Below the pieces are notes generated by a model, which ran no database searches, had not been told where the DNA came from, and was given only the letters and a program-made list of their open reading frames with translations. A program made the position numbers and the translations under genes. This document shows, one piece after another, positions 36,913 through 44,705 of a DNA stretch of 44,798 bases (position 1 is the first letter of the stretch; the number at the start of each line of letters is the position of its first letter). The stretch comes from Bacteroidales bacterium (lineage in GTDB: Bacteria > Bacteroidota > Bacteroidia > Bacteroidales > UBA7960). Location: NCBI GenBank assembly GCA_007130125.1, contig SLSZ01000135.1, positions 1 to 44,798 of the forward strand, written 5' to 3'.

Positions 36913-39900
36913 TTGTTTATGGCTTTTAAAATTTGGAAATTAATGAGTAAGCTTTTTGTTGCAATATACACTTTCATTCGAAGGTTCAGAGTTATATTTC
37001 TTCTGGCAGTGATTGCTTTTGCTGTGTTTGCAACATTTAACATCAGGAATATTACATTATTCGATGATTTTAGTGCTGTTTTTCCCCAGAGTGACAAAAT
37101 TGAAATTTATAACGAAGTAATATCAAACTCGACAATCCTCGAACAGATAGTATTTAATGTTTACCAGAAGGATACCTTGCAGGAAGCTGATCCGGCACAA
37201 TTAACATCTGTTGCTGCTCAACTTGCCGACAGCATTGATTATTACCTTAAGCCTGATTATGTGAGGTCAATTACATCGGGTGTCGATGATCAACTATTCT
37301 TTGAAGCCTTTGAATTGTTTTATCAGTACCTGCCTTTTTATCTTGATAGTGCTGATTATCGAATGCTTGATAGTCTTATTACCTATGAAGGTATTGAAGC
37401 CAAGCTTGAAGAGAACCTGAGATCATTGATGTCACCAGTGTCAGTTGTTACACGTGATTTTTTACTACAGGATCCATTACATATTGTTTTGCCTAAGCTT
37501 GAAGTTTTGAAAGATGTCCAATTGGAGGAAGGGCTTGAGTTATACAATAACTACCTGGTTACTGAAGATAAACGTAATGCTTTATTCTTTGTGCTACCCC
37601 ATGATACGCACAGTACAGCGGAAAACGAATATTTTGTCAATGAGTTGGAAAGGATTACCGGCAATTTTGAAAAGACTTACCCTGACATAAAAATCAGCTT
37701 TTACGGTTCAGTGCCGGTTGCAATTGCCAATACCCGGCAGATAAAGGATGATATTAAGCTTACAGTGTCAATAGCCTTAGTACTGCTGGTTTTCTTAATG
37801 CTTTTCTTTTTCCAGCGGATTCAGAACATTTTGCTGATTTTTTTCCCTGCCGCTGTCGGAGGTGTTTTAGCATTGTTCTTTTTTGCTGTATTTAAACCTG
37901 AAATATCGGCTTTGTCACTTGCAATAGGTTCAGTGCTGCTGGGAATCACCATTGACTTTTCTTTACATTTCCTTACACACCATAAGCACTCCGGCTCATC
38001 AAAAAAGACACTTAAAGCTATATCCGAGCCTGTTTTAATGAGTGGTTTTACAACAACAACAGCTTTCTTATGCCTGTTATTTATTACATCACCGGCTTTG
38101 CAAGACCTTGGTATATTTGCATCAGTTGCCGTTATGGGGGCAGCATTAGGTGCGTTGGTTTTTTTGCCACATATGGTAAATGATAAAAAGGTGCCAGGTA
38201 AAAAGCTTTATCGCCACACTATAATTGAGAAAGCTGCTGCTTTTGAACTGCATGCAGTTAAACCCCTGGTAATTGCCATATTGCTTATATCTGCATTTTT
38301 GTTGTATTTTGCACAATATACAAGCTTTGAAGAAGATCTGGAAAAGTCGGGTTACCTTTCGGAAGAGCTGGCTGAAGCTGATGAAAGGTTGAAAAAGATC
38401 TCCGATATAACCGAAACGACAATATATGTCATAGCTGAAGGAGAAACACTGGATGAATGCCTCCAGCATAACAGGGAGATCGTTAATGAGCTGCAACACC
38501 TGCAAAGTGAAAGTGTTTTCGAATCTTATTATTCAGTATCACGAATTATTCCTTCAGAAAAATTACAACAAGAAAAAATTGAGAAGTGGAATGACTTTTG
38601 GACAGATGAGAAGATTAGTAAAGCTAAATCTATTATGCGTGAAGCAGGAGGAAAGCTTCATTTCAACGAAAAAGCCTACCGGGGATTTTTCCGGATGATA
38701 GAAAAGGATTATGAAATTTTACCGCCGCACACTATTGCTAAAAAGCTGGGGCTTATAACTGAGAACTTTATCATTCACACACCAAGCCGTGTGATGGTTG
38801 CAAATCTGATAAAAGCCGATACTGACGAAATATCGGATGCTATTAAAGAGCATCTGGCCAAAAAAGAAAATACTCTCGTATTTGATAAAAAATCATTAGC
38901 TGAAAGTCTTTTTGATATTCTTAAACATGATTTCAACAGATTTATAGCGGCTTCTCTCGTAGTAGTTTTTTTGATTATACTGATATTTTTCGGCAGGATC
39001 GAACTGGCAATAATTACTTTCCTGCCGATGGCGCTAAGCTGGGGTTGGACTATCGGTATAATGGGCTTATTTGATATTAAGTTCAATATTTTTAATGTCG
39101 TTATTTCGGCATTTATTTTTGGGTTGGGGGTTGATTATTCAATATTTATTTCAAAAGGATTATTACAAAAGCATAAGTTTGGGGCTGACAATATCATTTC
39201 CTATAAAAGCTCAATATTATTGTCATGCCTCAGTACATTGATAGGGGTTGGTGTTTTGATATTTGCAAAACATCCTGCATTAAAATCAATAGCATTACTT
39301 TCTCTTATAGGTATAAGTTCCGTTGTGTTAATTGCATTTACATTACAACCGTTTTTGTTTGATAAAGCTTTTTATTATAAGGGTAAGCCACGTAAGAATC
39401 CGGTGAATCTTTATCAGTTTATGGTATCATCATTGGGTTTCTTTTCTTTTGGTGTAGTTGCCCTGTTTTTATCTGCATTAGTGCCGTTTTTTAAGGTATT
39501 CCCGGCAAAAAAAGTAAGGAAGAGGGCAGCTTATAAACGGCTGATATGCTCGGCTTGCAAGGTTATTATTTCAATTTCATGGTTTTATAGCCCCAAGAGA
39601 TCGTTCGAACTTGATAAAAGCACTTTTGACAAATCGTCAATTATAATATCCAACCACCAGTCTGTAATGGACTTGTTGTTATATCTGTCACTTTCGCCAA
39701 AAATAGTCATGCTTGTAAAAGATTGGGTCTGGAACAATTTTTATTTCGGGCGGGTTGTCAGATATGCCGGCTTTATCAATGTTGAAGAAGAATATAAAGA
39801 GACGTTACCTGCCCTGCAAAAAGCGCTTGATGATGGTAATTCAATACTGATTTTTCCCGAGGGTACAAGGACAAGAACGGGTAAGATCAGGAGATTTCAT

Positions 39901-40797
39901 AAAGGAGCTTTTTACTTTGCCGAACAGCTAAAAGCTGATATTACCGCAATACTTCTGCACGGTTATTATGAAGTGCTTCCGGCAGGTACTTTTATACTTG
40001 ATCCCTATCCTGTAAATGTTCGTCTGCTTGGAAGGTTTAGGTATGATGAGCTTGGAGACAATTACTCTGTGAGAGCAAAAGCAATGTGCAGGCTCTATCG
40101 TAAAGAATATAGAAAGTTGTTTGAAACGGAAAGGAGGACATTTTTCTACAAAACTGAACTCATTAACAAGTACAAGTTTAAAGGCCCTGTTATTGAATAT
40201 TATGTTAAAATAAAGCTTAGACTGGAAAATAATTACGAACTGTATGATGAAATTATACCGCGCAGCGCAAAAATCTTTGATGCCGGTTGTGGATATGGAA
40301 TGCTCACAAATATGCTGTCGCTCACAGGAAAGGATCGATATATCAAAGGAGTTGATTATGATAGAGAAAAAATAGAATTTGCTAAGAATACAGTATCTTT
40401 TGATCAGAAAAATATTGATTTTGAATGTGTTGATATTGCAGAATATGAGCCTGAATATTATGATGTTTTTATACTATTCGATGTGCTGCATTACATACCT
40501 GAAAGCTCGCAAAAAGCAGTTATTGAAAAATTTATTGCAAAGCTTAACCAGTCCGGCATGATCATTATTAGGGAAGGGAATAAAGACATCAAAAGCAAAC
40601 ATTTTATGACACGCGTCTCCGAGTTTTTCTCCACTGGTCTGGGATTTAACAAAGCAAAAGCCAAGCTTTCGTTTATTTCCGGTTCACTTTTGAAAAAAAT
40701 AGCAGATGAAAATAACATGTCTTTTGAGGTCATTGCATCCGAAAAAAGAACATCGAATCAGGTATTTGTTTTTAAAAAAAATAATCAAAAAAATTGA
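36913..40797 (+). CDS. Trifunctional MMPL/RND exporter - lysophospholipid-type acyltransferase - class I SAM methyltransferase
   Basis: 1294 aa: two RND-like TM bundles (IALVLLVFLMLFFFQRI..., LVVVFLIILIFFGRI...); 'NHQSVMDLLLYL' (HX4D) and 'IFPEGTRTRTGKIRRF'; 'IFDAGCGYGMLTNMLSL' methyltransferase motif I. Confidence 0.92.
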   Translation: MFMAFKIWKLMSKLFVAIYTFIRRFRVIFLLAVIAFAVFATFNIRNITLFDDFSAVFPQSDKIEIYNEVISNSTILEQIVFNVYQKDTLQEADPAQLTSVAAQLADSIDYYLKPDYVRSITSGVDDQLFFEAFELFYQYLPFYLDSADYRMLDSLITYEGIEAKLEENLRSLMSPVSVVTRDFLLQDPLHIVLPKLEVLKDVQLEEGLELYNNYLVTEDKRNALFFVLPHDTHSTAENEYFVNELERITGNFEKTYPDIKISFYGSVPVAIANTRQIKDDIKLTVSIALVLLVFLMLFFFQRIQNILLIFFPAAVGGVLALFFFAVFKPEISALSLAIGSVLLGITIDFSLHFLTHHKHSGSSKKTLKAISEPVLMSGFTTTTAFLCLLFITSPALQDLGIFASVAVMGAALGALVFLPHMVNDKKVPGKKLYRHTIIEKAAAFELHAVKPLVIAILLISAFLLYFAQYTSFEEDLEKSGYLSEELAEADERLKKISDITETTIYVIAEGETLDECLQHNREIVNELQHLQSESVFESYYSVSRIIPSEKLQQEKIEKWNDFWTDEKISKAKSIMREAGGKLHFNEKAYRGFFRMIEKDYEILPPHTIAKKLGLITENFIIHTPSRVMVANLIKADTDEISDAIKEHLAKKENTLVFDKKSLAESLFDILKHDFNRFIAASLVVVFLIILIFFGRIELAIITFLPMALSWGWTIGIMGLFDIKFNIFNVVISAFIFGLGVDYSIFISKGLLQKHKFGADNIISYKSSILLSCLSTLIGVGVLIFAKHPALKSIALLSLIGISSVVLIAFTLQPFLFDKAFYYKGKPRKNPVNLYQFMVSSLGFFSFGVVALFLSALVPFFKVFPAKKVRKRAAYKRLICSACKVIISISWFYSPKRSFELDKSTFDKSSIIISNHQSVMDLLLYLSLSPKIVMLVKDWVWNNFYFGRVVRYAGFINVEEEYKETLPALQKALDDGNSILIFPEGTRTRTGKIRRFHKGAFYFAEQLKADITAILLHGYYEVLPAGTFILDPYPVNVRLLGRFRYDELGDNYSVRAKAMCRLYRKEYRKLFETERRTFFYKTELINKYKFKGPVIEYYVKIKLRLENNYELYDEIIPRSAKIFDAGCGYGMLTNMLSLTGKDRYIKGVDYDREKIEFAKNTVSFDQKNIDFECVDIAEYEPEYYDVFILFDVLHYIPESSQKAVIEKFIAKLNQSGMIIIREGNKDIKSKHFMTRVSEFFSTGLGFNKAKAKLSFISGSLLKKIADENNMSFEVIASEKRTSNQVFVFKKNNQKN

Positions 40798-42361: not shown

Positions 42362-43120
42362 TTGATTTTGATAAATAATTTTAAAAATTCTTGTCACAAA
42401 AATCCTGTTAAAAACGACTGTATAATAAAAGCATCTGTTTTGGGAAAATTCGAAGATATATACAACGAAAACTATAATACCATGCTTGGTGTTGCGCGCA
42501 AAATGATAGGCAATGGTTATGATGCCGGCGATATAATACACGATGTTTTTATTGATTTCTTCGAAAAATGTGATGAGAGGACAACAGTTGTGAAATATCC
42601 TAAAAGCTGGTTATATCGTGTTACTTTGAACAAGTGTGTTGATAGGTTAAGAAAAAGTAAAAACCATAAAGATATCGAGGATGTTCATGGTAAAACAGAC
42701 GAGAATGACCAGACGGAAATTTCAGAGAAAAAGGCTATTGTCAGCCTGGCACTGTCAAAACTAAAAACAAATGAAAGAGAATTGGCAGTTCTGTATAGTG
42801 AGGGGTTATCTTATAAAGAAATTGCCGGAATTGCCGGCATAAAACTTTCTTCAGTGGGAAAAATGCTGTCGCGCACATTAAAAAAAATTGAGCAGGTACT
42901 ATGCCTTTCGCAAAACCCCTGGGAAGAAGACATCCTCCTATTGTTGCAAATGTTGGTGACGAACTTGTTGTGGCTATTCCTGAAACAGGGGAAATACTCA
43001 TCTATGACCTGGATGGAAAACTTCTGTCAAAACAGAACATTGACTGGGCAAAAGATTATGTTTCAGTGGAGGAACAGAAAGAGATTCAGCGCAATGCTAT
43101 TGAGAGGTACCGTAATATAA
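42362..43120 (+). pseudogene. ECF sigma-70 factor whose 3' end reads out of frame into a beta-propeller remnant
   Basis: Sigma region 2 (YNTMLGVARKMIGNGYDAGDIIHDVFIDFFEKCD) and region 4 (LKTNERELAVLYSEGLSYKEIAGIAGIKLSSVGKMLSRTLKKIEQVL) up to ~42900; the following ~73 codons are the shifted frame of the 42901..43506 ORF. Confidence 0.6.
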
Positions 43121-43506
43121 AGGAACCGCGTTTTGTGGAATGGGCATCCCCGGAAGAAAACCGTGCCGCACGTGATTATCTTGTGCGGGAGATGGAAAAA
43201 GACCTTGAAAAAATAAGCAAGCCAATACGTATGCCGTTTTTTTCAACCCTTATCCAAGACTCCGATGACAACCTGCTGTTTTTTGAGTTTCCAAAAGAAG
43301 AAGGAGCTAATAAGTTCAATGTATGGGTTTACCAGGATGGCGGGCAATTTGTAGCACAAAGCAGCTTCCATGTTGAAGGGTATGAGCTTGAAATTAAAAA
43401 CTCTAAAATGGCGTTTCATGATGGGTATTTGTATGCGCTGGTAAAGAAAAAAGGAGCTGAAGGCGTACCGCTAAGGGTAATGAGGTTTGAACTTAAAGGA
43501 CAATAA
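42901..43506 (+). pseudogene. C-terminal fragment of a 6-bladed beta-propeller-type protein (N-terminus missing)
   Basis: 'IVANVGDELVVAIPETGEILIYDLDGKLLSK', 'FNVWVYQDGGQFV', 'MAFHDGYLYALVKK' blade-like repeats; no signal peptide; in-frame TGA at 42889-42891 just upstream. Confidence 0.55.
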
Positions 43507-43554
43507 TGCCGGGATGTTAGAATATCTAAAATAAAACTCATCAGACTTTTCTTT

Positions 43555-43610
43555 AGGTGCAGAGCAACGTGACATAAAATCATCTTTTAATATCACGGTG
43601 CTCTGCACCT
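43555..43610. repeat. Inverted REP pair (BIME-like) with 18-bp arms
   Basis: AGGTGCAGAGCAACGTGA (43555-43572) vs TCACGGTGCTCTGCACCT (43593-43610): 17/18 complementary. Confidence 0.85.
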
Positions 43611-43828
43611 TTTGTTTAGCGAAGGTTGCATATTTGGCTGCAAATATCACGGTGCTCTGCACCTTTTATTTAGTAGGGAGAGCATTTTTGGCTACTTACA
43701 AATATTACGGTGCTCTGCACCTATTAGTTAACGGCGGCTGCATCTTTAGCTACAAATGTTGCTATGCTATGCACCTTTTAGTTAATGGCAGCTGCATCTT
43801 TGGCTGCAAATACTTGGTGTTCTGCATC
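43597..43828. repeat. Left tandem array of ~54-bp REP units (GGTGCTCTGCACC ...)
   Basis: Palindrome at 43597, 43651, 43709, degenerate at ~43763 and 43816; spacings 54, 58, 54, 53; inter-palindrome sequence also conserved (GGCTGCATnTTTGGCTGCAAATnTTnC). Confidence 0.92.
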
Positions 43829-43905
43829 TCTTATTTAGCCACGTATGGTCATTCAGCGAACGTTTTTACTCCTATCGTTATTAAAATTGTAACAAACCTT
43901 TCTTA

Positions 43906-43972
43906 GGTGCAGCGCACCGGCTATATTTATAACATTGAATGTTAATAAAGACTATCTAAGGTGCAGCGCACC
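43906..43972. repeat. Two oppositely oriented REP copies GGTGCAGCGCACC, 54 bp apart, just upstream of the RAYT
   Basis: GGTGCAGCGCACC at 43906-43918 and 43960-43972; the AGGTGCAGCGCACCGTGACATAA context resembles 43555-43577. Confidence 0.9.
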
Positions 43973-43997
43973 GTGACATAAGTCATAGCATTTTATT

Positions 43998-44005
43998 TAT
44001 ATTTG
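43998..44005 (+). promoter_or_regulatory. Bacteroidetes -7-like element TATATTTG upstream of the RAYT
   Basis: Perfect TAnnTTTG, 30 bp before ATG 44036. Confidence 0.45.
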
Positions 44006-44035
44006 CATAGTTATTAACCCAAAAAACCTTTAACC

Positions 44036-44494
44036 ATGGCAAACACCTACACACAATTTTACGCTCATCTTATATTTTCTCCAAAAAACAGACAAGCCTT
44101 AATTAAAAAGGCCTGGAAAGACGATTTAGAGAAATATATTACAGGAATAGTTCAACAAAATGGCCATAAATTGCTTTCTATAGGCAGCATGCCTGACCAT
44201 ATTCACATCTTTATTGGATATAATGTAAATCAGCTAATTCCAGAGTTAGTTGAGAAAATAAAAACATCAAGTAATGCCTGGATAAAGAATAATAATCTTT
44301 CAAAGAGCAAATTTGAATGGCAGCGTGGCTATGGTGCTTTTTCGCATTCAAGATCCAATATAGACAGTGTAGTTAAATATGTTTTGAATCAGGAGCAGCA
44401 TCACAAGAAAATGACTTTCAAAGAAGAATATTTAGAAATTCTTAAAAAGAATGATGTTGATTATGAAGATAGATACCTTTTTGAATTTTTTTGA
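44036..44494 (+). mobile_element. Y1 (HUH) transposase, IS200/IS605-like; RAYT candidate
   Basis: 'MANTYTQFYAHLIFSPKNRQALI', HUH motif 'MPDHIHIFIGY', catalytic Tyr region 'SNIDSVVKYVLNQEQHHKKMTFKEEYLEILKKNDVDYEDRYLFEFF'. Confidence 0.93.
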
Positions 44495-44538
44495 GGTCAT
44501 AGGGGTTTTTATTAATATAATTGTACTAAAAATGTTGC

Positions 44539-44659
44539 GGTGCTCTGCACCTATTAATTAGCTACGGCTGCATGTTTGGCTACATATGTTGCGGTGCTCT
44601 GCACCTATTACTTAGAGGAGGCTGCATATTTGGCTGCAAATGTTACGGTGCTCTGCACC
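44539..44659. repeat. Right tandem array of 54-bp REP units
   Basis: GGTGCTCTGCACC at 44539, 44593, 44647 (spacing 54, 54), same inter-palindrome sequence as the left array. Confidence 0.92.
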
Positions 44660-44705
44660 TTTTTTTTGATTTTTTACAGGGTTTTGATTTTTATATTTGG
44701 GATTT

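Follow-up and report, generated by a model that had tools for sequence, protein, structure and literature searches.

The locus and its palindromes

The window analysed here is a whole contig (G000:C249, 44.8 kb) within a 2.8-Mb draft genome. It carries a Y1/HUH transposase-like gene surrounded by copies of a short palindrome, GGTGC-N3-GCACC. The features of this region are the following:

43555..43610, no strand: inverted doublet of two palindromes forming one 56-nt hairpin, REPIN-like (by fold and inverted repeat)
43556..43568, plus: degenerate REP-like palindrome GGTGC-AGA-GCAAC, absent from the list of the preliminary description
43597..43609, minus: REP-like palindrome, outer left array (54-nt unit), exact stem
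43651..43663, minus: REP-like palindrome, outer left array, exact stem
43709..43721, minus: REP-like palindrome, outer left array, exact stem
43763..43775, minus: degenerate array unit, TATGCTATGCACC
43816..43828, minus: degenerate array unit, GGTGTTCTGCATC
43906..43918, plus: gene-proximal REP-like palindrome, loop AGC, exact stem
43960..43972, plus: gene-proximal REP-like palindrome, loop AGC, exact stem, 63 nt before the ATG
44036..44494, plus: Y1/HUH transposase-like gene, 152 aa, TnpA-Y1 subclass 1.2 type
44539..44551, minus: REP-like palindrome, downstream array, loop AGA in REP orientation, exact stem
44593..44605, minus: REP-like palindrome, downstream array, exact stem
44647..44659, minus: REP-like palindrome, downstream array, exact stem; followed by T8 and thus also terminator-like

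All eight palindromes with an exact stem lie inside 1.1 kb and none occurs elsewhere in the window, as compared to a mean of 0.01 expected from 100 dinucleotide shuffles. The preliminary description, made from the sequence alone, was therefore right in placing the Y1 gene between arrays of this palindrome. Three further copies, at about 43556, 43763 and 43816, are degenerate. On each side of the gene the palindromes are arrayed, with two to three or more copies per side; the outer left and right arrays have a 54-nt unit with one spacing of 58, and several of the units are identical at the stem. Since the window is the whole contig, the right-hand array may have been shortened by the assembly.

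A lone 5-bp hairpin is weak (about -4.5 kcal/mol). The doublet formed by the copies at 43556 and 43597 (inverted repeat I1, 88%) is predicted to fold as DNA into a near-perfect hairpin of -21.9 kcal/mol (z -10.3). Comparison with Rfam yielded only sub-threshold matches to miRNA families on long inverted repeats, which we read as chance.

Orientation and loops of the palindromes

Because the stem reads alike on both strands, the orientation of each palindrome was taken from its flanks. In the window, strands were called from the flanking context A-GGTGC...GCACC-G-N-A-A/Y-AT. For the homologous loci described below, an unsupervised two-orientation model was built from 279 copies at 59 loci, giving the consensus A-GGTGC-AG(C/A)-GCACC-G-N-AA-T-ATTTgta. 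The copies at 43556, 43906 and 43960 lie on the plus strand, and every TCT copy, on either side of the gene, lies on the minus strand. Thus, the flanking context confirms that the two copies directly 5' of the gene are inverted with respect to the arrays.

The preliminary description had also assigned a loop of their own to these two copies (AGC, as against TCT in the arrays) and had suggested that it may mark the recognised or ancestral substrate. Read in one common orientation, the gene-proximal copies have AGC and all others AGA, so that a one-base difference stands, and the contrast between TCT and AGC is largely an effect of strand. Across the 59 loci, AGC and AGA are both common upstream as well as downstream of the gene. 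The loop therefore does not mark a special substrate, and it was rejected as a functional marker. At the 5' foot of the palindrome only the A at position -1 is conserved (0.87), and a GTAG foot was absent from the GGTGC copies examined.

The Y1 protein

The 152-aa protein matches Y1_Tnp of Pfam (2e-26) and passes the IS200 model of NCBIfam (65.9 bits, cut-off 55); with the RAYT model REP_Tyr_transpos it reaches only 22.5 bits, far under the cut-off of 80. Its HUH motif is His55-Ile-His57 (DHIH), Trp95-Gln96 form the WQ motif, and the catalytic Tyr115 is found in YVLNQEQHH. The tyrosine motif is thus Y-x3-Q-x2-HH (Y115-VLNQ), as opposed to YxxNP in RAYTs. In alignments with homologues, H55, H57, W95, Q96, Y115, Q119 and H123 are invariant or nearly so, and the reading frame of the window gene is intact, with all conserved catalytic residues present. 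For the predicted fold (AlphaFold, pLDDT 88) ISDra2 TnpA is the top match in the PDB (Foldseek 3e-9). Overall, profile and fold searches return the TnpA proteins of ISDra2 and IS608 first and E. coli TnpA-REP (4er8) much lower. On the tyrosine motif, the REP_Tyr_transpos score and the missing GTAG foot, a classical RAYT was rejected.

As judged from its sequence, the motifs of the protein are those of TnpA-Y1 subclass 1.2 (DH[IV]H, WQ and Y---Q--HH in ~148 aa), and its IS200 model match and fold are also those of the IS200/IS605 enzymes of subclass 1.1. Subclass 1.2 was described by Quentin et al. (2018, PMC6006769) as proteins of ~150 aa with DH[IV]H, WQ, Y---Q--HH and a C-terminal extension, present in low copy number, mainly in Bacteroidetes and Cyanobacteria, and generally without the typical end structures of IS200. 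In that work the group has neither insertion-sequence properties nor partner repeats, and the table entry for REP is "no". In its own genome the window protein has five homologues besides itself, which are only 35-52% identical to it, and no near-identical second copy of the gene was found there. Low copy number, divergent paralogues and the lack of IS-like behaviour thus agree with subclass 1.2.

Palindromes at homologous loci

Homologous loci were drawn from relatives, from the order and from named genomes by searches with the single window protein, and are without cyanobacterial members of subclass 1.2. The 179 loci include some reached by two routes (165 after removal of identical proteins). 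Exact 5-bp stems were required in the palindrome searches, so that imperfect or longer stems are missed. A GC-rich 5-bp stem was repeated at least twice within 600 nt of the gene at 159 of the 179 loci. Palindromes numbered 6.35 per locus near the gene on average, as compared to 0.49 after dinucleotide shuffling and 1.24 in the adjoining outer 600 nt. Where enough flank was available, repeated stems were present near the gene at 129/140 loci and at a distance of 600-1200 nt at 12/140. Arrays reach 9-14 copies; at L049 / L112 there are ten extra GGTGC palindromes 600-1200 nt from the gene, besides ten close ones.

The palindromes around the gene are an inverted pair: the closest upstream copy lies on the plus strand at 48 of 52 loci and the closest downstream copy on the minus strand at 41 of 43. 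The layout of a REPtron, a single gene between inverted cognate palindromes, is thus present. From the reading of the locus as a RAYT REPtron, the own palindrome family and the inverted layout can be kept, both being conserved in homologues, whereas membership among the classical RAYTs (model, motif, GTAG) cannot.

The other five homologues of the own genome each have palindrome families of their own nearby, of the CACCCC/CACCTC, GCCGC and CCTGAAAGG types. These genes (L011, L012, L013, L014 and L015) are of the subclass 1.2 type and differ in the palindromes at their flanks; in L013-L015, which are more distant, the units are longer and composite, e.g. GCCCTGAAAGGGC + CACCGGTTATCCGGTGG, in repeats of roughly 100 nt.

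Stem, protein and shared tail

The stem changes with the protein. From about 62% identity to the window protein upwards, homologues almost all have GGTGC (some GCTGC, GGCGC or GCGGC), those at 55-60% mostly GTCCC, ATCCC or GCTCC, and those of lower identity further stems, e.g. ACCCC, GCCGC or TGCCC. Of the locus pairs with less than 55% protein identity, 2-10% have identical stems; among those at 60-75% the share is 60-84%. The correlation between stem and protein relatedness (Mantel r 0.51, pairs below 80% identity) exceeds the permutation maximum of 0.15, and the tree requires 52 stem changes as compared to 69-75 in 200 shuffles. Stem and enzyme are inherited together; this covariation is partly expected from the common descent of neighbouring DNA and is not by itself proof of recognition.

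Furthermore, a tail model was trained on GGTGC copies only and then applied to other stems. The 457 palindromes with 48 other stems score 1.23 on average and share the 3' tail G-N-AATATTTGTA; shuffling of the flanks lowers the score to -4.46 (-3.81 in the best of 50 shuffles). For these stems the tail model alone recovers the inverted layout (53:16 upstream, 13:53 downstream). As the model trained on GGTGC fits 48 other stems, the stem varies between lineages and the 3' tail is constant.

The association with the transposase phylogeny, the one tail common to unrelated stems, the arrays of 9-14 copies and the upstream copies pointing the opposite way argue against transcription terminators or RNA-stability hairpins under selection, next to which the gene would merely lie, as the sole explanation; although 12 terminator-like matches were obtained (1.0 expected) and a T8 run follows the last copy (44647), we consider this explanation very improbable, and a role in termination could be a by-product.

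Dispersal in the own genome and in relatives

The preliminary description had called for an enrichment of the palindrome throughout the genome. The outcome is mixed, with minimal dispersal in the own genome and dispersed copies in relatives. Outside the window the own genome has exact palindromes at one place only, an intergenic gap on C218 where a looser pattern gives two copies 54 nt apart, and no dispersed REPIN-like doublets were seen in it. Among 16 named genomes, the 15 with a gene of the GGTGC clade contain 373 exact copies (7-52 each), as compared to 12 for a reversed control pattern; the sixteenth, Arcicella (GCTTC stem), was included as a contrast and had no GGTGC copies in the exact-pattern search. 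Among 295 genomes sampled across the order, 101 were without copies; the eleven whose gene has 62% identity or more (the own genome included) had 3-23.

In genome G123 there are 75 copies, most of which form inverted doublets with a spacing of about 130 nt and additional hairpins inside. In 13 aligned doublets conservation fades roughly 10-15 nt outside the outer hairpins, and the flanks are unrelated on each side in 68 of 78 site pairs. In these doublets (L223-L236) the outer GGTGC hairpins enclose at least two inner ones (GCGGC-TCT-GCCGC, GCAGC-AGA-GCTGC), and at L256:9996-10243 the inner unit is repeated several times. One gene of G123 (L064) is flanked by GGTGC copies and adjoined by a 69%-identical gene fragment. 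Another type of doublet, with 52-nt spacing, occurs in G296.

The dispersed doublets of relatives do not contain the gene. In G179 (68 copies), G296 (27), G103 (16), G246 (12) and G125 no GGTGC-flanked gene was detected, with 10-68 copies per genome. The preliminary description had held that the same arrays in genomes lacking any Y1 gene would refute its reading, and G103, G246 and G125, which carry copies and have no homologue at E 1e-12, come close to this case. For the copies in G179, G296, G103 and G246, gene loss that left orphans, gaps in the assembly or a palindrome of unrelated origin may be the explanation.

Comparisons of the two Labilibaculum genomes (G330/G331) and of G123/G224 gave no clean empty site at base level; in one intergenic comparison of G224/G123 (about 54 versus 692 nt) the sequences are too diverged to place ends. 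At the Labilibaculum site shared by the two species (L260, L262) both have GGTGC arrays in differing arrangement, which suggests array turnover.

Since only one other genomic locus was found, the system may be dead, weak or local in the host of the window; overall it looks local and possibly quiet there.

A probable REP-like partnership of a subclass 1.2 enzyme

The arrays, their inverted orientation, their enrichment around homologues, the covariation of stem and protein, the shared tail and the dispersed doublets in relatives probably reflect a REP/RAYT-like system, whose IS200-type enzyme would bind, nick and mobilise the palindromes. The enzyme would be a single-copy Y1 HUH nuclease of subclass 1.2 that recognises its own hairpins with a 5-bp stem on single-stranded DNA, the family in question being A-GGTGC-AGM-GCACC-G-N-AATATTTGTA. 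In this proposal, the stem would serve as a lineage-specific address read by the enzyme, and the site nicked by Tyr115 would lie in, or coincide with, the constant AT-rich 3' tail, by analogy to IS608/ISDra2 and TnpA-REP. Nicking of the hairpin by Tyr115 together with the HUH pair is likewise modelled on IS608, ISDra2 and TnpA-REP (PMC8266576). Local tandem arrays would then arise as the hairpins are nicked and rejoined at replication forks; in some hosts this would also disperse them as inverted doublets, the gene itself remaining single-copy between its inverted pair. Points against this reading are the single further locus in the own genome, the copies of G179 and G296, where no gene with GGTGC flanks was detected, and the low stability of a lone 5-bp hairpin.

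An ordinary insertion sequence of the IS200/IS605 type, whose end hairpins have been tandemly duplicated and whose gene and hairpins move as one element, is an unlikely alternative in our view. Sequence and fold are indeed closest to the TnpA proteins of ISDra2 and IS608, and one inverted hairpin type per side would fit LE/RE-like ends. However, the gene is single-copy, its paralogues are divergent and each has a different hairpin, several arrayed copies are present per side, and the dispersed doublets of relatives do not contain the gene. The system resembles IS200/IS605 (IS608, ISDra2; subclass 1.1) in fold, in sequence and, by analogy, in the recognition of hairpins on single-stranded DNA. 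It differs in that the window gene is not multicopy, in having arrays instead of single end hairpins and in showing no sign of gene and ends moving as a unit; for the window gene no set of near-identical element copies, each with a single hairpin at either end, was found.

About equally improbable is a decayed relic, i.e. arrays left by an ancestral active enzyme and a pair that persists in this host in an inactive state. Such a relic would agree with the one other locus in the own genome and with the degenerate units at 43763 and 43816, but not with the intact 152-aa frame, the conservation of every catalytic residue and the identity of several array units at the stem.

Returning to the REP/RAYT-like reading, its closest counterparts include the REPtrons of the class 2 RAYT / TnpA-REP proteins in E. 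coli, Stenotrophomonas and Marinomonas (PMC2817692, PMC8266576). In both, a single-copy Y1 gene lies between inverted copies of its own palindrome, there are several enzyme-repeat pairs per genome, and the repeats are dispersed in some hosts. Unlike in these REPtrons, the protein is IS200-like (Y-x3-Q, not YxxNP), and the palindrome has no GTAG foot, a short 5-bp stem and a 3-nt loop. The conserved unpaired element, which in E. coli-type REPs is the 5' GTAG guiding cleavage, is here the AT-rich tail 3' of the stem. The fixed-spacing, dispersed inverted doublets of G123 and the 56-nt doublet hairpin of the window are reminiscent of REPINs (Bertels and Rainey 2011, PMC3116915), but the enzyme class and the repeat anatomy are different, and there are extra internal hairpins (GCGGC/GCAGC). 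Subclass 2.6, for which 'atypical secondary structures' were reported in Bacteroidetes (PMC6006769), has the same type of host and non-GTAG hairpins; in contrast to the window protein, its members are class 2 proteins with YIH[QN]NP and NH[LIV]H motifs.

As compared to published members of subclass 1.2, the length, the motifs, the C-terminal extension and the low copy number are the same, and repeated palindromes are found at most of the loci examined. A REP/RAYT-like pairing is thus encountered in a protein subclass recorded as being without REPs, and it appears that the published statement is incomplete rather than that the window protein is misfiled. In the open-access literature we found no later report of repeats for subclass 1.2; one in a subscription journal is possible. 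On balance, though with somewhat less confidence than for the window system itself, we favour a so far unlisted and widespread partnership in Bacteroidota, in which subclass 1.2 Y1 enzymes each have a private 5-bp stem and share the 3' tail, the enzyme clade predicting the stem.

If this is true, nature would provide a series for reading how Y1 enzymes recognise hairpins, with dozens of diverged enzyme-stem pairs and a constant tail, and the part of the hairpin that is read could be tested via stem swaps between two natural systems. A cognate hairpin family for most members of subclass 1.2 would supply a testable substrate, the relation between REPs and transposases would then also include the superfamily's IS200 branch, and there would be an explanation for a class of short palindromic arrays seen in genomes of Bacteroidota.

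Further features of the window

At the end of the contig (44702-44743) there is a separate 16-nt inverted repeat, ATTTACCCTGTTAAAT / ATTTAACAGGGTGAAT, which is unrelated to the GGTGC family. At 42362-43506, a frame for an ECF-type sigma factor overlaps by about 220 nt with a 201-aa frame, the latter without a Pfam match. Positions 36913-40797 encode a 1294-aa fusion of MMPL, acyltransferase and methyltransferase parts, adjoined by an amino-oxidase-like gene; we take this region to resemble an aryl polyene or flexirubin-type cluster.
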